Source: Candidatus Shapirobacteria bacterium
Lineage (GTDB): Bacteria > Patescibacteriota > Microgenomatia > UBA12405
Assembly (NCBI GenBank): GCA_016188545.1
Contig: JACPHO010000004.1
Span: forward strand, 1-41,585
Direction: 5' to 3'
DNA length: 41,585 nt
In this document: positions 1,620 to 15,235 of the stretch, in pieces
Layout of the letters: each line of letters starts with the position of its first letter
Position numbering within the stretch: the first letter of the stretch is position 1
Notes under the pieces: model-generated
Seen by the model: the letters and a program-made list of their open reading frames with translations, nothing else
Told to the model about the DNA's origin: nothing
The model's database searches: none
Position numbers and translations under genes: made by a program

Positions 1620-3623
1620 TTAATTGATTAGACTGCTAAATTCAGCCTCGTTAATAATTTTTGTCTCGAATTTTTTGGCATTAATAAATTTGCTGGAGCT
1701 GGATTCAGTTTCGTTTGTAATTAAATAATTAGTATTTTTGGAGACATTGCTGTGAACCTGACCACCTTGGGAAATTATGATATCTTCCAATTCTTTGCGA
1801 GGACGACTGAGGGTACCGGTGATACAAAAGGATAGGCCGAAAAATGCCAAATTTTTAATTTCTAATTTCAAATTAACATTTGAAAGAATTGATTCGATCC
1901 AAGAACGGCGTAGATTGATACCGGCAATAATTTTTTCAGCTAGAGTTTGCTGGAAGCCTTTGATGGATAAAAGATCATCGACAGTTAATGAGAGTAACTT
2001 TTGTGGAGTGTCGAAACCGGCATTAATGAGTTGGAGAATTCGTTTTTGGGAAAAGTTGGGTATGATGGACGCGTCAAACACTTCGACGATACTTAAGATT
2101 CTTTTTTTATCAATCTGATGAATGATGTTTTTAGCTGATTTTTCCCCTAAGTTATCCAAGTCTTTGATATTGGACACAGTTAGTTTATAAAAATCACCAG
2201 GGAGCCTAATTCGATTGACTTGGTAGAGCTTGGTGATGGTTTTTTCTGATAATCCAAGAATTTCCAGGGTGTCGCAGAATAGCCTGAGACTGCCGATAAT
2301 TTGAGGTAAACAATTTTGAGTATTGGGACATTTGAGAAACTTTTCTTCTTTGACTAATAGTGTGTGACAGGAGGGGCAGGTTTTGGGAAAATCTAGGTGT
2401 CCAGAATTAACCTTAGTAACTACTTTTTCAATGTGAGGAATTACATCTCCGCGTCGGCTGATTTGGACAACGTCACCGATATTTAACCCCATTTTTTGAA
2501 TAAGATCGTAGTTGGCCAGGGAGGCAAAAGTAACAATGGCACCAGAAAGTTCAATTGGTTCTACCTCTGCTACCGGAGTAATGGTGCCCATGGGGCCGAC
2601 TTGCCAGACTACTTCTTTGACTGTTGTCTGATTGTCCGAGGCGGGAAACTTGTAGGCGACTTGGAATTTGGGGCGGTTGTTGAGTGAACCTAAACTATTG
2701 GCGATATTTAGGTCGTTGATTTTGATAACCAAGCCGTCAATCTCATAAGGATAGCTAAGACGATCTTCGTCTAGAAATTTTTGATAAATTGATTCGATCT
2801 CTTCAAACTGGGTGCAAAGATGTGACTCTACTGTGGTAAATCCTAGGGACTGAAGTAGATCAATTTTTTCCTGCTCGGTGTTTACCGAAGCCATGATATC
2901 AACGGCATAGAGGGAACAATATTCGGAATACTTTGAATCAAGGCGTTGAGAAAGACCAGAGGCGGCATTGCGGGGGTTGGAATAAAACTCTCCGCTTTCA
3001 ATCTCCCCCTCCGACTGTTGTCGGAGACCCCTCTTTGACAAGAAGGGTAAGGTACTTTTTTGGACTTTCTGGTTTAATTTGCCAAAATCAGCTTTAGTAA
3101 CAACTATCTCACAACGGACGGAGCCACTAAAGCCTTTGGGGTTAGCGACAAAGTTTTTCATTTTGACGACATTTTGGGTGATAATATCGCCGATTTTACC
3201 GTCGCCTCGGGTAATGGCATCGATTAGTTGACCATTTTTGTATTCTATTTCCAGAGAGATGCCATCACATTTGGGTTGGACAACGTAAGATATGCTATGC
3301 ATATCAACGTTGCTGCCTGCGGCGCTTTTTTTTAATTCGAAATAGTGAATTAAGTTGGCAAAAGTATTGACCTTGTTTTGAGAAGACATGGGGTGGGTGT
3401 GATTCTTTTTAGACCAGCCGGTATCAAAATTTTCGTGACCGACTTTGCTAAAAATTCGGTGGTGGGGAGATTTTTGACGGAGAATTTCTTCAAGAGTGTC
3501 GTAGGTGTGGTCGTCCATTATTGGCTTACCACTAGTGTAGTAGGCTTTTTTGGCGGTGATGAGAAGCTCGCCGAGGGATTCGGGAGATTTATTTTCGATA
3601 TCAAGTGATTCTAAAGTCAACAT
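1620..3623 (-). CDS. ligA: NAD-dependent DNA ligase LigA (start likely 3623, MLTLESL)
   Basis: KCDGISLEIEY active-site motif, NPRNAASG, EIDGLVIKIND, zinc-finger CPSC..CPN..C, HhH and C-terminal BRCT. Confidence 0.97.
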   Translation of the reverse strand: MLTLESLDIENKSPESLGELLITAKKAYYTSGKPIMDDHTYDTLEEILRQKSPHHRIFSKVGHENFDTGWSKKNHTHPMSSQNKVNTFANLIHYFELKKSAAGSNVDMHSISYVVQPKCDGISLEIEYKNGQLIDAITRGDGKIGDIITQNVVKMKNFVANPKGFSGSVRCEIVVTKADFGKLNQKVQKSTLPFLSKRGLRQQSEGEIESGEFYSNPRNAASGLSQRLDSKYSEYCSLYAVDIMASVNTEQEKIDLLQSLGFTTVESHLCTQFEEIESIYQKFLDEDRLSYPYEIDGLVIKINDLNIANSLGSLNNRPKFQVAYKFPASDNQTTVKEVVWQVGPMGTITPVAEVEPIELSGAIVTFASLANYDLIQKMGLNIGDVVQISRRGDVIPHIEKVVTKVNSGHLDFPKTCPSCHTLLVKEEKFLKCPNTQNCLPQIIGSLRLFCDTLEILGLSEKTITKLYQVNRIRLPGDFYKLTVSNIKDLDNLGEKSAKNIIHQIDKKRILSIVEVFDASIIPNFSQKRILQLINAGFDTPQKLLSLTVDDLLSIKGFQQTLAEKIIAGINLRRSWIESILSNVNLKLEIKNLAFFGLSFCITGTLSRPRKELEDIIISQGGQVHSNVSKNTNYLITNETESSSSKFINAKKFETKIINEAEFSSLIN
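2999..3052 (-). repeat. Palindromic repeat copy inside ligA, in frame
   Basis: CAATCTCCCCCTCCGACTGTTGTCGGAGACCCCTCTTTGACAAGAAGGGTAAGG aligns with the 3675 copy and contains the perfect stem CTCCGAC-TGTT-GTCGGAG. Confidence 0.8.
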
Positions 3624-3674
3624 CGAGTAATTATATCTCAACCCACCCCCTGTATTTTCCATTAACTATATTTT

Positions 3675-3715
3675 CAATCCCCCTCAGTCCCCCTTTGACA
3701 AGGGGGAAGTAAAGG
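3675..3715 (-). repeat. Palindromic repeat copy between ligA and the DUF559 gene
   Basis: CAATCCCCCTCAGTCCCCCTTTGACAAGGGGGAAGTAAAGG; stem CCCCCTT-TGAC-AAGGGGG. Confidence 0.9.
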
Positions 3716-3728
3716 CAGAATATGTGTA

Positions 3729-4160
3729 GTGGGAAATATTGTTGATGATGCCATTCATAGTGAGCGAGGTGTGATTAGGTATTGGTCAGAGCTTAGAGAT
3801 GTTGCAAGGGTGAACAGGAAAAACCCGACTAAAGCTGAAGAAAAGTTGTGGATTGAGATACTAAAGAATAAGCAAACTGGTTATTTATTTTTAAGACAGA
3901 AGCCGATTTATAGATTTATTGCTGACTTTTATTGTTCTGAATTGAGTTTAATTATTGAAGTGGATGGTGATTCTCATGACAATAAAAAAGGAACAGATAA
4001 ATTGAGAGATCAGTGGTTGGAATGTATTGGTATAAAGACAATTAGATTTACTAATAAAGAGGTATTGGAAAACATAGAATTAGTTATAGAAAAGTTGATT
4101 CCCCTCCTTGTCAAAGGAGGGGTTAGGGGTGGATTGAAAAGTAGGATGGGTCAAGTATAA
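3729..4160 (+). CDS. DUF559 (VSR-like PD-(D/E)XK) endonuclease domain protein
   Basis: [87 protein letters not shown] is the DUF559 signature. Confidence 0.93.
4097..4138 (+). repeat. Palindromic repeat copy encoding the C-terminus of the DUF559 protein
   Basis: GATTCCCCTCCTTGTCAAAGGAGGGGTTAGGGGTGGATTG; 9-bp stem CCCCTCCTT-GTCA-AAGGAGGGG; inverted relative to the 3675 copy. Confidence 0.92.
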
Positions 4161-4203
4161 ATCATTGACTTTTCCTTATTATAGGGTAATATATGTGTAT
4201 ATT

Positions 4204-4548
4204 ATGGTCAAAAAAGCAGGCAGGACACCGGAAGAGATATTGGGCGTAGGTGTAAACGCGAGTGCAGATGAGATACGGAATGCATATCGGAGATTGGCCA
4301 AAAAGTATCACCCCGATGTCAGTAAAGAAAATGACGCTTTAGAAAAATTCATGGAACTGGAGGGGGCAGTAGATAGACTAAAAACCAGATCAAATTTAAA
4401 GGGCTTATTAGACTTCGATTTAAATAATTATGAGTTAGATTTGTCTAAGCCTGTTAAGTCTCGCGTCGTAGCTAGAGTTGGTACTGTAAGCATAGTTGAG
4501 AAAACATATTACATTGAAAAGAAAAAACCCAGATTGGGGAACGGTTAA
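4204..4548 (+). CDS. J-domain protein (DnaJ-like)
   Basis: [34 protein letters not shown] with HPD motif; start chosen at MVKKAGR (4204). Confidence 0.85.
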
Positions 4549-5682
4549 TTAGACATTCGCCAGACAATAGTAGGCGCCTTTGGTGGAGCCACGTTTTTCA
4601 CAAACTTTATCGTCGATTAGTTTTTTGAGATCGCGCCAGATGGTGTCGTCGCTGATCATGGGGAGTAGTGACTTGGCGTCGGGCATGCGAAGGCCGCCGA
4701 ATTTTTGCATATACTCGACCAATTTTATTTGGCGTTCGGAGAGATGGACCTGTTTACCGCCAAGTTTTTGTTTGAATTTGATATCGCGGGAAAGGGATTG
4801 GACTTTTTCTTTGACACGGGTGAGCTCGATGCTAAGTGCTTGAGTGAAGAAATCGATCCATTTGGTGAGATCACGGTGGAAGATGTCGGAAGAAAGCTGG
4901 TGGGTGGACTGGATGGTGTTGTAATAGTCTTCGGCATTGCGGTCAAAATATTCTTCAAGAGAAAATAAACGACGGATGTCATAACTTTCGACATAAAGAG
5001 GGATCATGGCAAAGGCTCTGGAAACCCGACCATTACCTTCAATAAAAGGGTGAATAGCCACTAATATATATTGGGTAATAGCGGAGCGAATACTGGGATG
5101 AATGTCACGAGTTTGGGGGTCGTTGAGCCAATCAAGAAGGTCGGTCATAAGATATGGGACCTCGATGGCTGGGGGTGGACGATGAGCTATTTCGCCAGTA
5201 CGGGTGTTTTTGAGAACGACTTGCTGGTGACGGTATTTACCAAGCTCACTGTCAGGAATGATTTTGGTGGTGGTTAGGTCGTGAATTTTTTTGACTAGAG
5301 TAGCACTATAGAAGAAAGGTCGTGGACCATGTGAGTCAAAATTTGGTACGGTTTTTTCTTCAGGAAGTGGTAAATTTTTTTGATACATACTCCAGATTTC
5401 TTCGAGATAGGTGACCACATTACGGTAGTTAATAACTTCTTGAATGCTTCTTTGAGCACCAGTAATGTCTTGTCCCTCAATGAGTTTGGCGACTTCCTGA
5501 AAAGTTAAGTCGTTACCCTCGATACGGGTACCATAGTGGACAGTCCTAACAATAGCATCCTGTTGAAATTGCTTTTCGTAAGCAGGAATCAGTGGGGCCT
5601 CATCAATAATTGCCTTAGCTCCTTCGAGTGTGGCTATGTTGCGGAGGATGTTGTTATTGATTGAAAAGATCGGTGAAAACAT
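4549..5682 (-). CDS. Fic family protein with C-terminal winged-helix-like region
   Basis: HPFIEGNGRVSRAF Fic motif; TRIEGNDLT resembles the inhibitory-helix region. Confidence 0.95.
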   Translation of the reverse strand: MFSPIFSINNNILRNIATLEGAKAIIDEAPLIPAYEKQFQQDAIVRTVHYGTRIEGNDLTFQEVAKLIEGQDITGAQRSIQEVINYRNVVTYLEEIWSMYQKNLPLPEEKTVPNFDSHGPRPFFYSATLVKKIHDLTTTKIIPDSELGKYRHQQVVLKNTRTGEIAHRPPPAIEVPYLMTDLLDWLNDPQTRDIHPSIRSAITQYILVAIHPFIEGNGRVSRAFAMIPLYVESYDIRRLFSLEEYFDRNAEDYYNTIQSTHQLSSDIFHRDLTKWIDFFTQALSIELTRVKEKVQSLSRDIKFKQKLGGKQVHLSERQIKLVEYMQKFGGLRMPDAKSLLPMISDDTIWRDLKKLIDDKVCEKRGSTKGAYYCLANV

Positions 5683-8315: not shown

Positions 8316-9386
8316 ATGAATATAAAAATTAAACAAATATTAGAACTGGCGGTGGCAAATGGAGCGTCAGATATCCATCTGTCAGTATCGACTCTGCCAA
8401 AACTGAGAGTAAATGGTGAGCTGATTGATATTGCCAATTTTGATATTAGTAACCCCTTGGCGACGACGGAAATGATCTTATCACTTTTGAGTGATGATCA
8501 AAGAGTTAGGTTTAGCACTGAAAAAGAATTGGACTTTTCAGTAACCTTAGAAGAAGCCCGTTTTAGAGTAAATATGTTTCTCCAGAGGAGTGAAGTTCGA
8601 TGTACGCTTCGGGTTGTGTCATCAACAATTCCTTCGTTTAAAGAACTCAAGCTTCCAGATATTTTTTCTGAAATTGTTAACTATAAACAAGGTTGTGTTC
8701 TGGTGACTGGCCCAACTGGTCATGGAAAATCGACGACAGTGGCCTCCGTTTTGAATAGAATAAATGAGGAACGAAAGGTTCACATGGTTACAGTCGAGGA
8801 CCCGATTGAATATATTTTGAAACCAAATAATTCAGTCGTTTCTCAACGAGAATTAGGTAATGACACTTTAAGTTTTGCAGCGGCACTAAAGTCGGTGTTG
8901 CGGCAAGATCCAAATGTAGTTTTTGTGGGTGAGATGAGAGACTTGGAAACGATCACCTCAGCTTTAACTATTGCTGAGACAGGGCATTTGGTGTTTTCGA
9001 CTTTGCACACTAATTCGGCAGCCCAGACTGTTGATCGAATCGTGGATGTTTTTCCGGAAGGATCTAAAGATCAGATAAAAGTACAACTGGCCAGTGTAAT
9101 AACTGCGATTGTATCACAAAGACTGATTCCAGCAATCGATGGTGGACGGGTACCAGTTTTTGAAATATTGATGGCTACCCCAGCAGTAAAAAATGCCATA
9201 CGTGATGGAAAATCATTTATGCTAGATAACATTATTCAAACCAGTGCAGATTTGGGAATGGTAGGTTTGGAAACCTCTCTGTCACGACTAGTACACCAGG
9301 GAAAGATTACTGAAGAAGTAGCCATGAGTTACTCATTGCGACCGAGTGAATTGCAAAGTAATCTAAGAAGCCTAAAAAAATTATGA
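8316..9386 (+). CDS. pilT: Pilus retraction ATPase PilT-like
   Basis: ASDIHLS, TGPTGHGKSTT, DPNVVFVGEMRDLETITSALTIAETGHLVFSTLHTNSA. Confidence 0.96.
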   Translation: MNIKIKQILELAVANGASDIHLSVSTLPKLRVNGELIDIANFDISNPLATTEMILSLLSDDQRVRFSTEKELDFSVTLEEARFRVNMFLQRSEVRCTLRVVSSTIPSFKELKLPDIFSEIVNYKQGCVLVTGPTGHGKSTTVASVLNRINEERKVHMVTVEDPIEYILKPNNSVVSQRELGNDTLSFAAALKSVLRQDPNVVFVGEMRDLETITSALTIAETGHLVFSTLHTNSAAQTVDRIVDVFPEGSKDQIKVQLASVITAIVSQRLIPAIDGGRVPVFEILMATPAVKNAIRDGKSFMLDNIIQTSADLGMVGLETSLSRLVHQGKITEEVAMSYSLRPSELQSNLRSLKKL

Positions 9387-10594
9387 GTAAGTTTGTATAT
9401 AGGGCAAAAGATTGGACGGGAAAAACGGTAAGGGGTGTACTAGATATGGCGACTAAGGCACAGGTGGTTGAATCTATAAAGAGTAGTGGGTTGGTACCGT
9501 TGATGGTAGAAGTAGATAAGGATAATGTGTTAAAAGAGTTTTATAAAAGATTTGCTTATCGGATAAAGTTTAAGGACATTACCTCAATGACTCGACAATT
9601 GTCGACAATGATGACTGCTGGCTTGCCACTGACTGATGCACTTCAATTACTTAAGAACCAACTGGAAACTAATCCACCAATGTATGAAATTTTGGATTAT
9701 TGTCTAAATCAAGTCCGGGGAGGTCAACCTTTGGGCAAGTCGATGATTAAATATGAGAACATTTTTGGGGAGGCATACATTGCCTCAATTAGTGCTGGAG
9801 AAGAAGCAGGAGTGTTGGAAGAAATACTGACTAAGCTGGCAACTAACATGGAGAACCAAAACGAATTTAATGGTAAGGTTAAGGGAGCAATGATTTATCC
9901 GATGATTGTGGTTATTGGAATGATTGCGGTGGCATTCGTTATGATGATTTTTGTGATTCCCAAATTGACTAGTTTGTATACAGATTTTGGCTCAAAGATG
10001 CCAGCGTCAACCCAACTCTTGATGTCGATGTCAAATTTTGCAACCAGGTGGTGGTTTTTGTTCCCGATTTTTGGTGTGGGACTAGTGATGTTTTCAAAAG
10101 TGACCGAGAAAAATCCGGGTTTGCGACTCAAGGTGGATTTGTATAAATTAAAAATACCCATTTTGGGTGAGTTAAACCGAAAAACGATGTTGGCTAATAC
10201 TCTGCGGACGATGTCAATGCTTCTGGCGGCAGGTATCAGCTTGGTGGAGGTATTAAGGATTGTGTCTAAAGTAGCGGGTAACGAAGTTTACTATAGATCA
10301 TATGTACGCATTGCGGAGAGAGTCCAGAAAGGTTTTTCGGTATCAAATTCGTTTGAAGAAACTGGAGTTTTTCCATTAATAGTTGAACAGATGGTGTCGA
10401 CTGGTGAAGCGACTGGTAAACTAGATGAAGTGTTACTAAGAGCGTCAGATTATTTTGCCACTGAAGCTGAGCAATCAGTTAAGGCTTTAACATCGGCTAT
10501 TGAGCCAATCATTATGATTATTTTAGGTCTGGGTGTTGCTTTTTTAGTGGTGGCAGTCATTATGCCGATTTATAACTTGACAAGTCAATTTTAA
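9383..10594 (+). CDS. pilC: Type IV pilus inner-membrane platform protein PilC/GspF
   Basis: T2SF repeats: FTSMTRQLSTMMTAGLPLTDAL...GEEAGVLEEIL, second repeat SMLLAAGISLVEVL...GEATGKLDEVL. Confidence 0.96.
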   Translation: MSKFVYRAKDWTGKTVRGVLDMATKAQVVESIKSSGLVPLMVEVDKDNVLKEFYKRFAYRIKFKDITSMTRQLSTMMTAGLPLTDALQLLKNQLETNPPMYEILDYCLNQVRGGQPLGKSMIKYENIFGEAYIASISAGEEAGVLEEILTKLATNMENQNEFNGKVKGAMIYPMIVVIGMIAVAFVMMIFVIPKLTSLYTDFGSKMPASTQLLMSMSNFATRWWFLFPIFGVGLVMFSKVTEKNPGLRLKVDLYKLKIPILGELNRKTMLANTLRTMSMLLAAGISLVEVLRIVSKVAGNEVYYRSYVRIAERVQKGFSVSNSFEETGVFPLIVEQMVSTGEATGKLDEVLLRASDYFATEAEQSVKALTSAIEPIIMIILGLGVAFLVVAVIMPIYNLTSQF

Positions 10595-10611
10595 AAGCAT
10601 TTAATTAAGTT

Positions 10612-11310
10612 ATGAAAAATATAAATGTGGCCATGCCTACCGGCAGGCAAGGTTTTACCTTGGTTGAATTACTAATCGTCATTGCTCTGATTGCAATTTT
10701 GTCGGTGGCTGTATTGGCAACTATCAATCCAATTGAGCAATCAAACAAGGCAAAGGATGCCACTGTTCAGAATGATGCGGCTGAAGTGTTGAATGCATAT
10801 GAACGTTATTATGCTGCGCAAGCATCATATCCTTGGGTTGATCTTTCAGGTGCCGCATTAACCGTCGACTCTGCGGCATTTATGAATAGTAGTCAGATTG
10901 GCTTTGGACTGTGTGCCTCAAATGTGGTTGGGGCTACTTATTCAAGTAGTTGCTCCCCTAGAAACTCACAGGGCTTGCTTTTGAGTACAACTGAGCTTAA
11001 AGATTCATTTTTAGAGAAGAATTATACTAAATTTCCAACTAATGTAGCTAACCCACCAGCATTTACTGACATGATTTATACCGTTAAAGATCCAGTAGCC
11101 AATGGAAACTCAATCCATGTCTGTTTTATTCCAAAGGCCAAGGCAAATCGCACAGTAAATTCTAAACTTAAATTGTTGGCACTTGATGTTAACAATGTTC
11201 CAACAACTTACGGGGATGCAGATGTTTCAGATGCCACACAATTTTCAAATGGTTATGCGGTGTGGACGTTCACCACCGGGGCTACCTCGATGTTTAAGTG
11301 TGTACCCTAG
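10612..11310 (+). CDS. Type IV prepilin (candidate major pilin)
   Basis: G|FTLVELLIVIALIAILSVAVLATINP class III signal peptide/N-terminal helix. Confidence 0.93.
   Translation: MKNINVAMPTGRQGFTLVELLIVIALIAILSVAVLATINPIEQSNKAKDATVQNDAAEVLNAYERYYAAQASYPWVDLSGAALTVDSAAFMNSSQIGFGLCASNVVGATYSSSCSPRNSQGLLLSTTELKDSFLEKNYTKFPTNVANPPAFTDMIYTVKDPVANGNSIHVCFIPKAKANRTVNSKLKLLALDVNNVPTTYGDADVSDATQFSNGYAVWTFTTGATSMFKCVP
10633..10652 (+). repeat. Imperfect palindrome GCCTACCGGCAGGC encoding MPTGRQ inside the prepilin leader
   Basis: ATGCCTACCGGCAGGCAAGG; GCCTACCGGCAGGC (10635-10648) is 12/14 self-complementary. Confidence 0.7.
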
Positions 11311-11379
11311 TATTGTAAGCAGTATAATAATGTGGGATTCTTTGTCACAGTAAGGAATTTATTGCTGTTAGAATAATTT

Positions 11380-12162
11380 ATGGAGTTGTATTTGACGGCA
11401 GTATTTTTTCTAGTTGGATTGTGTGGGGGAAGTTTTGTTAATATGCTTTTGTATCGAACAGAAGTCAGATATAAAATTCAAAAGAAAAAAGTAAAAAGTA
11501 AAAACGAAAGTAGAAGTTTCTGTGATTTTTGCGGAGAGCAGCTTAGATGGTTTGAAAACATCCCAGTAGCTTCCTGGGTGATATTAAAAGGTAGGAGTCG
11601 ATGTTGCAACAAACGACTCCCCCGCCTGTATCCGACAGTAGAAATGACTGTAGGTGTTTTGTTTGCATATATTATTTATCATTTATCATTTATCATTGAT
11701 TGGAACCTGCCAATTTATTTGATAATAGTGTCTCTGTTGGTGTTTTCAGCGGTATTTGATTGGAAATATATGATCTTACCGGATTTTTCAACATATATTT
11801 TAATTGGTTGTGCTGGATTGCTTTGGTTCCTCAACAATTTTGGCGACTATAATTTTATTTTTGCTGGTTTGGGAGCTTTTTTGTTTTTATTGATACTTCA
11901 TCTGGCTACAAAAGGACAGGGAATGGGTATGGGTGATGTAAAATATGTTTTTTTTATGGGATTATTGTTAGGCTTAACTAGGACAGTACTGGCATTTTAT
12001 TTGGCATTTGTAGTTGGAGCATTAGTTGGGTTGGTGCTGATTATTTTTTATAAAAAAAATAAAAAAAGTCGCATACCATTTGGACCATATTTGATTATGG
12101 CGACACTGGTTGGTTGGTTTTGGGGGGAGGGCATATTATTATATTTGTATAAATGGTTTTAA
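11380..12162 (+). CDS. pilD: Prepilin peptidase PilD/GspO (A24 family)
   Basis: GGSFVNMLLYR, CDFCG...C zinc motif, FDWKYMILPD, GMGMGDVKYVFFMGLLLG catalytic motif. Confidence 0.95.
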   Translation: MELYLTAVFFLVGLCGGSFVNMLLYRTEVRYKIQKKKVKSKNESRSFCDFCGEQLRWFENIPVASWVILKGRSRCCNKRLPRLYPTVEMTVGVLFAYIIYHLSFIIDWNLPIYLIIVSLLVFSAVFDWKYMILPDFSTYILIGCAGLLWFLNNFGDYNFIFAGLGAFLFLLILHLATKGQGMGMGDVKYVFFMGLLLGLTRTVLAFYLAFVVGALVGLVLIIFYKKNKKSRIPFGPYLIMATLVGWFWGEGILLYLYKWF

Positions 12163-12821
12163 ATTGGAGTAAGAGAGGTTTTACATTAATCGAATTGATG
12201 ATAGTAATGATGTTGATTGGTCTGATGGCACTAATTTTAGTGATGGCTCTTAACCCCGGGGTGATAGTTGATAAAGGAAATGATTCTCAAAGAAAGAAAG
12301 ATTTAGGTCGGATCAGGATTGCCTTTGAGGAGTATTTTAATGATAAGAAGTGTTATCCAAGTCAGGTATTGATAGATGGATTAGAGTGTGAAAAAAATGG
12401 TTTTAAACCTTGGTTATCAAACTGGCCATGTGATCCAAATGGTCAAAAATATTATGTGATGACAGATGATTCTAGTTGTCCGCGATCGTATAGAATACTA
12501 ACGAACCTGAAAAATCGTCAGGACCCAGTGATTCCTAGTGGATGGTATAGCCAAAATTCTAGTTCGAAATTTGGCGATGGTACAGTAACGATAAATGATG
12601 TCAATTATGGTATCTCAAGTCAAAACGTGTCCTGGTATGAAGAGATGGTACCTCCACATTGTTACACTTCCTTTAAAGGCTGTTACCTGATTCCCGGTTT
12701 AGGAAGGTGTAATGCGCTACCACCAGGAGAACAACATGTTGGAGCTTATTTACATCCAGATTGTATGCCAGAGTGTCAGGTTAGCTGTTGTGAAGACGGT
12801 CAGATTTGTGTTTTGCCTTAG
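12153..12821 (+). CDS. Type IV prepilin-like protein, Cys-rich C-terminus
   Basis: RGFTLIELMIVMMLIGLMALILVMALNPG; C-terminal CxxSC/CC cysteine cluster. Confidence 0.92.
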   Translation: MVLNWSKRGFTLIELMIVMMLIGLMALILVMALNPGVIVDKGNDSQRKKDLGRIRIAFEEYFNDKKCYPSQVLIDGLECEKNGFKPWLSNWPCDPNGQKYYVMTDDSSCPRSYRILTNLKNRQDPVIPSGWYSQNSSSKFGDGTVTINDVNYGISSQNVSWYEEMVPPHCYTSFKGCYLIPGLGRCNALPPGEQHVGAYLHPDCMPECQVSCCEDGQICVLP

Positions 12822-12829
12822 GAGTGGTT

Positions 12830-13333
12830 ATGATTAGGTTAGTGAAAAGACAAGGATTTACATTGATTGAGTTGATGGTAGTAATTACTATAATCTCCTT
12901 ATTAACGGTCGTGACCGTATCTCAATTTCAGACTGCCAAAAAAAAAGCCAATGATGTGGCTCGTAAAGGTGACATCAATGCTGTTTCAAAGGCATTACAG
13001 ATGTATTTTAATGATTATGGTTATTTCCCGATGGAGTCGGAAATTAATTGGGGGGGGACATTTGAAGATTCCTCAGCCAGTCCAGCTTATGTTTATATGA
13101 AAAAAATGCCGAGAGAAAATTATTTGCCGACAAAACCATATTGCTATAAAGTCAGTCCGGATCAAAAGAAATATGGTTTATTTGCGCAATTAGAAAACGT
13201 GACTGACAAGGAGTGTGACCGAAATAACAACAACTCAGCCGATGATAATAATTATATGTGTGATGGTGTTGGTTATTGTTACGGGGTGGCATCACCAAAT
13301 ACAAGTTTATCTAGCAATGGTGATTTGGAGTAG
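12830..13333 (+). CDS. Type IV prepilin-like protein
   Basis: MIRLVKRQGFTLIELMVVITIISLLTVVTVSQFQTAKKKANDVARKGDINAV; start likely MIRL rather than the track start at 12806. Confidence 0.9.
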   Translation: MIRLVKRQGFTLIELMVVITIISLLTVVTVSQFQTAKKKANDVARKGDINAVSKALQMYFNDYGYFPMESEINWGGTFEDSSASPAYVYMKKMPRENYLPTKPYCYKVSPDQKKYGLFAQLENVTDKECDRNNNNSADDNNYMCDGVGYCYGVASPNTSLSSNGDLE

Positions 13334-13775
13334 ACAAAATACTGGTTTTACTTTGGTTGAGTTGTTGATTTCAATTGGTATTATGGGAACTTTGATGGCA
13401 ATTTTGTTACCAAATTTTATGGGAGCTAGAGAAAGGGCTAGGGATGCTCAAAAGATACAGGATTTAGGAACAATGAAGAACGCCCTTAGATTGTATTATA
13501 ATGATAATCAAACTTATCCAGCTGGTTCAGGTGGATCATTGGGGGTGGGGATGACTGCTTATATGAGTAGTGTGATAAATTTGGGATATACTTATGACTA
13601 TTATCAACTAGATAATGGTGATGGTTTTGTAATCTGTGTTGGGCTGGAGGCTGGAGCAGGTACTGAAGATACAACTTCTCAACAAAAGTGTGGTGTGTCA
13701 GGATTAGGGGTGGGAATTTGTGGAATGGGGGTGGGTCAGACAGGAAATAATATATTTACAGTTTGTGCTAAATAA
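13317..13775 (+). CDS. Type IV prepilin-like protein
   Basis: MVIWSRQNTGFTLVELLISIGIMGTLMAILLPNFMGARERARDAQKIQDLGTMKNAL; start overlaps the end of the previous pilin. Confidence 0.9.
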   Translation: MVIWSRQNTGFTLVELLISIGIMGTLMAILLPNFMGARERARDAQKIQDLGTMKNALRLYYNDNQTYPAGSGGSLGVGMTAYMSSVINLGYTYDYYQLDNGDGFVICVGLEAGAGTEDTTSQQKCGVSGLGVGICGMGVGQTGNNIFTVCAK

Positions 13776-13806
13776 GAAGAGATTTATGAATTAAGATTTA
13801 TGAAAT

Positions 13807-14226
13807 ATGAATAAAACAAAAAATGGGTTTACGCTATTTGAGCTGTTGGTGAGTATTTCGATTGTAGCGATATTGTCGGCACTGGCAATAGTTTCATTTA
13901 GTTCGGCCCAAAAGAAAGCTAGGGATTCTAGAAGGGTTCAGGATATGTCGTTGATTCAAAAGGCAGCGGAACAGTACTATATGTTAAGTTCCTCAAATTA
14001 TCCGACAACATTGAGTGTGGGAACGTCCTGGTCGGCTGGTGGACAGACGGTATTAGAGGTAATACCCCTGGATCCAAAAGGGGTTGGTTATACGGCTACC
14101 ATGAGCGTCAGTAGTTATTGTATTTGTGCATTTGTAGAAGGGACTGGTGGTAATTCAACCAATAGCGCTTGTAACTTTGTTGGTGCCGGTGCCAAGATTT
14201 ATTTTTGTGTGAAAAACCAACAATAA
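13807..14226 (+). CDS. Type IV prepilin-like protein
   Basis: NGFTLFELLVSISIVAILSALAIVSFSSAQKKARDSRRVQDM. Confidence 0.9.
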   Translation: MNKTKNGFTLFELLVSISIVAILSALAIVSFSSAQKKARDSRRVQDMSLIQKAAEQYYMLSSSNYPTTLSVGTSWSAGGQTVLEVIPLDPKGVGYTATMSVSSYCICAFVEGTGGNSTNSACNFVGAGAKIYFCVKNQQ

Positions 14227-14245
14227 TCGCTTCGCGGAATAACCA

Positions 14246-14686
14246 ATGACCAATAACCAATTTTCAAATAACCAGAAAAATCAAAAGGGGTTTACACTGA
14301 TTGAGTTGATTGTGACGATGACAATAGTGGCAGTGTTGACGACAGTAGCCATGATTAGTTTTGGGGGAACCAATAAAAGGGCCAGGGATGGAAGAAGGGC
14401 CTCCGACATCCAGAAGATAGCGATTGCTTTAGAGATGGCCCGTCAAGTTGGTGGCACTTATCCAGTAGCCTCAGGTGGTCAAGCACCAGATCTGGTAAAT
14501 GGACAATATTTACAAAAGTGGCCAGATGATCCGAGTGGATATATTTACTATTACCAGAGACCAACTAATTATACTTATAGTCTAAGTTCTTATATGGAAG
14601 ATTTGGGGTCAACAAATGGCACTGGAAGCTATGGTAATAATTGTGATGCACCAGGAAATTGTAATTATCAGGTGTCTAATCCTTAG
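14246..14686 (+). CDS. Type IV prepilin-like protein
   Basis: KGFTLIELIVTMTIVAVLTTVAMISFGGTNKRARDGRRASDIQKI. Confidence 0.9.
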   Translation: MTNNQFSNNQKNQKGFTLIELIVTMTIVAVLTTVAMISFGGTNKRARDGRRASDIQKIAIALEMARQVGGTYPVASGGQAPDLVNGQYLQKWPDDPSGYIYYYQRPTNYTYSLSSYMEDLGSTNGTGSYGNNCDAPGNCNYQVSNP

Positions 14687-14716
14687 GTTAAGAGTAAAAG
14701 AGTTTACAATAATAAT

Positions 14717-15235
14717 ATGCGACATGGATTTACACTAGTTGAGTTGATGGTGGTAATAACTATAGGAATCGTGATAACTGGTGGAGCGATGGTGTCGGTG
14801 ACAAAATATGTGGCTAAAGAAAAACTAGTTCAAGCCGCCAGTGAGGTGGTTTCGATGGTTGATCTGGCCAGAAATATGGCAATAATCAATCAAGTGACAG
14901 CTGGCTTTACCAACCTAGACTATGTGGCTGTGACCCTGACAAGTAGTGGAGTAGTTTCAGTGTTTCCGGTAAATAACATTAGTGGTGTGGGTAGTAGTTT
15001 GGTAACAAAAAAAATCGGCAGTGGAGGAATTGTTTTTAGTAGTTTAAATTTAGGTGGACTACAATTTGCTGCTGGTAGTGGAAAATTAGTAGGGAAAAAT
15101 CCAAGTCCTTCTTATCAGAGTTATCCCCTCCCTCCCACCACAAATGTGGGAATAACTATTTCGAGCACTGAAGTCAGTGAAACTCAGCAAATTATTATTA
15201 GTCCGTTTGGTGGAGTGACCAACACAAAGTTATGA
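14717..15235 (+). CDS. Type IV/II minor pseudopilin (GspH-like)
   Basis: MRHGFTLVELMVVITIGIVITGGAMVSVTKYVAKEKL. Confidence 0.87.
   Translation: MRHGFTLVELMVVITIGIVITGGAMVSVTKYVAKEKLVQAASEVVSMVDLARNMAIINQVTAGFTNLDYVAVTLTSSGVVSVFPVNNISGVGSSLVTKKIGSGGIVFSSLNLGGLQFAAGSGKLVGKNPSPSYQSYPLPPTTNVGITISSTEVSETQQIIISPFGGVTNTKL

Follow-up and report, generated by a model that had tools for sequence, protein, structure and literature searches.

The window analysed here, a stretch of 41,585 nucleotides from a Candidatus Shapirobacteria bacterium, raises the question of why a small nuclease-like gene should be bracketed by two inverted copies of a short structured repeat while a third copy is read in frame inside the adjoining ligA, and whether that gene might be what moves the repeat. 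The gene (positions 3729 to 4160, forward strand) encodes a DUF559 endonuclease-like protein of 143 amino acids; it matches profile PF04480 (E = 1.9e-28; 98.9 bits against a cut-off of 20.6), keeps 13 residues that are invariant in the alignment (E, D, ExDGxxH, D and others), and is the only DUF559 gene that a profile search found in the window's genome (981 kb, 8 contigs). On one side lies ligA (NAD-dependent DNA ligase by its Pfam match; 1620 to 3662, reverse strand), and on the other a Fic-domain gene (4549 to 5682, reverse strand), which is a conserved neighbor of ligA in the family and marks the empty site. A DnaJ-domain gene (Pfam; 4165 to 4548, forward strand) stands between the unit and Fic and had no match at the Fic-ligA junction in the relatives' loci.

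All three repeat copies listed in a first-pass annotation, made from the letters alone, are present (2999 to 3052, 3675 to 3715 and 4097 to 4138) and exceed chance: CCCCTTTGACAAGGGG, with up to three mismatches, has four matches at three sites in the window against 0.38 expected, and none of 100 shuffles reached four. The sequence and the PF04480 match bear out that the inverted copy at 4097 to 4138 forms the end of the DUF559 open reading frame, of which it encodes the last 20 residues or so. The claim that the repeat is read in the same phase in both proteins did not hold, because ligA (like valS, discussed below) reads TTG-TCA-AAG and the DUF559 tail CTT-GTC-AAA, one base apart; the resemblance between the two peptides comes only from arms that differ by a single base.

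Anatomy of the triplex motif

The annotation called the repeat palindromic. A palindrome is indeed there, but there is more to it, namely an arm, a loop, a second arm, a 3-nucleotide spacer and a third copy in mirror image, after which comes ATTGAA. Judged by sequence, the window's three copies are members of the known BoxC/PIT or 'TM' (triplex motif) family of class II intrastrand triplexes, a membership that the annotation had missed. Class II TM repeats (BoxC/PIT) are those of Hoyne et al. 2000, as cited by Holder et al. 2015 (PMC4666352), and occur in more than 260 genomes; the first sightings, in E. coli, date from the 1990s. Holder et al. describe an E. coli TM that folds as a triplex by CD and NMR, and in vivo footprinting that saw no triplex (PMC4666352).

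The architecture of the class, a pyrimidine arm, loop, purine arm, short second loop and mirror third strand on one strand, is found here with a loop of 4 nucleotides and a spacer of about 3 (often TTA) between the purine arm and its mirror. The intergenic and DUF559-tail copies fit it, and the ligA copy carries an additional hairpin in the spacer. The TM 5' of DUF559 (3677 to 3707, reverse strand; recognized from sequence, single-strand fold and architecture) consists of the pyrimidine arm TCCCCCTT (3707-3700), loop GTCA, purine arm AAGGGGGA (3695-3688), spacer CTG and third strand AGGGGGAT (3684-3677). The 3' TM (4101 to 4134, forward strand; recognized from sequence, fold z = -3.3), which encodes the C-terminal tail of DUF559, consists of CCCCTCCTT (4101-4109), loop GTCA, AAGGAGGGG (4114-4122), spacer TTA and third strand GGGGTGGAT (4126-4134). 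The copy in ligA (2994 to 3052, reverse strand; fold z = -4.1) is in frame and encodes the peptide LPFLSKRGLRQQSEGEIES. The third run mirrors the purine arm in the intergenic copy (AAGGGGGA-ctg-AGGGGGAT), in the DUF559-tail copy (AAGGAGGGG-tta-GGGGTGGAT) and in a copy within valS elsewhere in the genome (AAGGGAGA-ttt-AGAGGGAT). The whole unit (TM, DUF559, TM) spans about 0.47 kb (3672 to 4140, forward strand), is of the outward-facing type (<[D]>), has outer tails that read TTTTCAAT and ATTGAAAA, and is inserted in the Fic-ligA junction.

Across 124 non-redundant units beside DUF559 genes of the window's phylum, the mirror model accounts for 905 of 1145 third-strand positions (820 under a direct-repeat model, 760 ± 9 after permutation), and in an independent set of 122 units from other phyla for 977 of 1096 (903 and 835 ± 8, respectively); the direct-repeat model, scoring lower than the mirror model in both sets, was rejected. 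Opposite A the third strand carries A 111, T 43, G 36 and C 3 times, and opposite G it carries G 505, A 31, T 10 and C 3 times, a pattern repeated in the other-phyla set; the substitutions obey the purine-motif triplex code. Neither duplication nor inversion makes a mirror repeat, and this one therefore suggests selection on the folded strand.

In some TMs (the ligA copy and the 60-bp repeats of genome G010 at loci L317, L319 and L323) the spacer that separates the purine arm from the third strand contains a small hairpin of its own, an appearance that would fit a TM having acquired another palindrome. The window also holds a different repeat family at 854 to 970, where ACAACCCGTCTTCGCTTCGCTACGACGAGGTAAATGTAA, palindrome-like and 39 bp long, occurs three times in tandem immediately before a tRNA-like stretch on the reverse strand. 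At 10646 to 14764, six repeated stretches encode prepilin-type N-termini (GFTLIELMVV-like), which probably belong to a type IV pilus cluster.

Association of the motif with DUF559

We searched for DUF559 in 287 genomes of the window's phylum, 74 of which were positive, and a scan of GTDB species genomes added 80 DUF559 loci from outside it (mostly Proteobacteria and Deltaproteobacteria, with others in Nitrospirae, Spirochaetes, Omnitrophota, Aminicenantes, Dadabacteria, Binatia and further groups); in both collections DUF559 genes lie between inverted TMs. Nearly every DUF559 gene in the first 30 loci was bracketed by such hairpins, and in 81 regions of up to 20 kb holding 87 DUF559 domains, a hairpin with pyrimidine and purine arms was found within 300 bp on the 5' side of 74, the 3' side of 69 and both sides of 64. 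These hairpins cluster in the 200 bp to either side of the gene; their density is more than 50-fold lower beyond 400 bp, and is 0.01 per kb in control regions (each hairpin counted once). A full TM under the strict definition was present within 300 bp at 65 of the 80 other-phyla loci, where density is 7 to 11 TMs per kb adjoining DUF559 versus about 0.1 beyond 400 bp. Within the window's phylum, 19 of 24 DUF559 genes had a full TM within 300 bp versus 0 of 27 GIY-YIG control genes. The first-pass annotation had proposed a REP/RAYT-like or homing-type arrangement and had named, as evidence against it, a lack of enrichment next to DUF559 across relatives; instead, enrichment was seen, in this phylum and in others.

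TMs no more than 50 bp from the gene point inward in the other-phyla loci (24 of 24 on the 5' side, 42 of 43 on the 3' side), and nearest TM pairs are inverted in 84 cases and direct in 12 (p = 2e-14), the inverted pairs comprising 73 inward-facing and 11 outward-facing, the window belonging to the latter class. The 5' and 3' stems within one locus match at 0.89 versus 0.75 for shuffled loci, and 79 of 119 DUF559 open reading frames, the window's included, run into their 3' TM. Genomes with a strong DUF559 match carry on average 12.5 copies of the TM pattern and the others 0.5 (odds ratio 53, p = 2e-27, a p-value that overstates independence because the genomes counted are related). Stem and protein co-vary modestly within the window's phylum (Mantel r 0.21, 0 of 500 permutations) and not significantly in the other-phyla set (r 0.06, 67 of 500). 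TMs also reach three or more copies in at least ten genomes that lack a strong DUF559 match. Taken together, the association between TM and DUF559 is well supported.

Two genomes without a DUF559 match, G145 and G022, have 15 and 10 TM copies and are candidates for recent gene loss or for another mobilizer; the highest count seen was 154 copies of one TM pattern in G183 (L070, L080), a genome of about 1.0 Mb. In E. coli, the DUF559 gene ycjD has a single relaxed TM about 175 bp past its 3' end, and strains without ycjD still keep TMs. The fabI-sapF interval across E. coli holds either ycjD or the eefRABCD efflux operon, alternating (K-12 MG1655, L167, 2600-3330). E. coli was accordingly rejected as a model for clean empty sites: where ycjD is lacking, eefRABCD takes its place, so that no clean excision can be read.

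Boundaries of the unit and states of its sites

Similarity between loci is confined to the unit. In 241 ordered non-syntenic pairs it never extended more than 25 bp past the outer TM edges; 113 of 355 similarity ends fell within 15 bp of a TM edge and nearly all others stopped inside. The block edges can be seen base by base in within-genome paralogs (G207, G268) and in a pair from Deltaproteobacteria and Dadabacteria. As expected of a transposon, a discrete unit recurs in non-homologous contexts, and it is well supported that TM, DUF559 and TM form a discrete block of about 0.45 kb (0.42 to 0.53 kb) that occupies unrelated places in many phyla. This limit of homologous DNA, together with the enrichment and the GIY-YIG control, supports the REP/RAYT-like or homing-type arrangement that had been proposed.

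Several states of one site can be read at the Fic-ligA junction, where the two genes are directly adjacent in six family members, separated by two TMs and no gene in G295, separated by the whole unit in G000 (the window's genome), G302 and G291, and separated by unrelated spacers in other members. The TM inside ligA is intact in G000 and in G288 of the same genus, absent from G287, also of that genus, and decayed to remnants in G290, G299, G291 and G295; these present, decayed and absent states confirm that it is an in-frame insertion, as the first-pass annotation had held. The window's genome has at least three further TM copies, two intergenic (C4:45047 and C8:371942) and one in frame in valS (C8:83662), the host reading frame of which has 749 residues; valS of G287, G289 and G302 has a shorter loop there, without the TM. 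In genus g31, G032 is without DUF559 and no TM was counted in it. The G010 unit has no counterpart at the syntenic site in G032, nor at that in G082, where a solo TM-like hairpin is found, and the 60-bp end repeat of the G010 unit is dispersed in G010 at identities of up to 97%.

No target-site duplication was found at the unit ends (mean shared k-mer 2.88 versus 2.81 ± 0.17 shuffled), and the bases beside the units show only a weak A-Y-T motif before the pyrimidine arm. At L261 (about 4880-5420) a 20-nucleotide perfect inverted repeat continues in the flanks of the unit beyond the TMs. At L132 (about 9370-10600, G252) a block the size of a unit is duplicated in tandem, giving two DUF559 domains with identical scores at a distance of 565 bp.

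DUF559 as candidate mobilizer

An AlphaFold model of the window's DUF559 protein (pLDDT 84.9) has as its top Foldseek match the Neisseria DUF559 structure 3HRL (E 3.5e-6), followed by the catalytic domain of homing endonuclease I-Bth0305I (3R3P; E 1.2e-3, TM-score 0.80 by target length), E. coli Vsr being a weak match; on the predicted model, the protein has the EDxHD homing endonuclease fold. VsrA, a DUF559 protein of Caulobacter, is described as required for an SOS response in cells without a DNA methylase (PMC12907096), and on that description DUF559 members appear able to act on DNA in vivo.

The reading we favor, and consider probable as a whole, is of a minimal mobile unit in the window, made up of a DUF559 nuclease gene and the inverted class II TMs on its two sides, which would be moved or copied as a single block of 0.42 to 0.53 kb. 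In function it would resemble REP/RAYT, though its enzyme is unrelated. Its observed basis is the anatomy of the TM, the association with DUF559, the boundaries of the unit, the empty, TM-only and full states of sites, and the in-frame insertions. To this the model adds DUF559 as the acting enzyme, recognition of the folded form and the chemistry of transfer. The EDxHD/Vsr-fold nuclease would recognize the TM folded as a single strand (a hairpin with a reverse-Hoogsteen third strand), as might form behind a replication fork, and would nick or cut at the foot of the folded TM; host repair, we assume, would reseal the freed or broken DNA at new sites, leaving no target-site duplication. TMs without a gene may be mobilized in trans by DUF559, which would scatter solo TMs over the genome, including those in frame in ligA and valS. 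A mobilizing role of DUF559 is likely on the comparative evidence, and we infer it, as the first-pass annotation did.

The alternative to which we give most weight, itself unlikely, makes DUF559 a passenger, with another enzyme acting in trans (such as a Y1/RAYT transposase) or errors of host replication moving the TM-bounded segments. TMs do occur in some genomes without DUF559, and those of E. coli persist without ycjD, as a passenger would allow; yet one gene family sits inside the unit across phyla, GIY-YIG genes were not found there, the window's genome is without a Y1 match, and Y1 adds nothing when DUF559 is taken into account (two or more TMs in 7% versus 7% of DUF559-negative genomes). 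Y1/RAYT as the mobilizer was rejected, since it has no effect on TM copies (log odds 0.24 versus 3.95 for DUF559). Next in order we place the idea that TMs are fragile or recombinogenic sites at which DUF559 genes, as Vsr-like repair or restriction nucleases useful in their own right, were captured by illegitimate recombination. Raised rearrangement at TM loci is reported by Holder et al. (PMC4666352), and Caulobacter VsrA is described as acting in DNA repair and SOS (PMC12907096), but such capture predicts many gene families in random orientation, whereas the pairs are inverted (84:12) with stems matching within a locus, and similarity between unrelated loci reaches the TM edges and does not pass them.

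Less likely again is a homing-type selfish gene, in which DUF559 cuts TM-less alleles that are then repaired from the TM-bearing copy, the TMs being protective or serving as homology arms and new sites being rare. The nearest fold outside DUF559 is that of a homing endonuclease, I-Bth0305I, and presence and absence alternate at one conserved junction (Fic-ligA) within the family; homing, however, keeps to one site, and TMs and units occupy many unrelated sites with no strong common flanking sequence. Terminator-like hairpins are a common feature between genes, and the repeats could in principle be G+C-rich hairpins or terminators that lie by chance near small genes, a notion to which we give next to no credence: it is refuted by the control genes (0 of 27), by the mirror third strand in two independent sets and by the window shuffles (0 of 100).

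The favored reading, a mobile unit acted on by DUF559, has partial counterparts among known systems. BoxC/PIT/TM repeats share with the window the pyrimidine arm, purine arm, mirror third strand, a 3-nucleotide second loop of TTA or CCG, and frequent inverted pairs; in the account of Holder et al., no gene class or mobility function is reported for them, the 2015 survey explicitly found no mobility gene adjoining TMs, and the E. coli motif is always intergenic (PMC4666352), whereas the window's TMs bound DUF559, form a unit, and sit in frame in ligA and valS. I-Bth0305I and Vsr have their catalytic fold in common with DUF559, but I-Bth0305I combines several domains and has a target of nearly 60 bp (PMC3943268), and DUF559 is essentially the catalytic domain alone and occupies no fixed site. 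TM units resemble REP/RAYT in that their repeats are short and structured, form inverted pairs around a single small nuclease gene of one domain, and have many solo copies. The REP/RAYT enzyme (TnpA-REP) is of the Y1/HUH type, unlike the EDxHD/Vsr-fold DUF559; the REP foot tag GTAG/CGTC was not seen in the base frequencies beside TM units (weak A-Y-T only), the TM has a mirror third strand, and the presence of Y1 does not predict copies. Rickettsia palindromic elements (RPE) likewise sit in frame within essential genes and are not known to have a nuclease partner.

We found no link between DUF559 and palindromes or triplex repeats in the open-access papers searched, and one may have been reported elsewhere. 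DUF559 is annotated as a domain of unknown function, and how TMs spread and what acts on them have so far been without an answer; by its position and distribution, DUF559 points to the missing enzyme behind the BoxC/PIT/TM family, the origin of which has been unexplained since the 1990s. More tentatively, and at somewhat less than an even chance, DUF559 proteins may be widespread transposition or copying enzymes that recognize a single-stranded DNA triplex, with BoxC/PIT repeats and solo copies such as those in ligA and valS as their non-autonomous offspring. If that is true, the TM-DUF559-TM unit, at about 0.45 kb, would be among the smallest autonomous mobile elements. Linking TM and DUF559 makes both questions testable with one protein of about 110 to 140 residues and a 35-nucleotide oligonucleotide, and could yield a protein that reads a DNA triplex.
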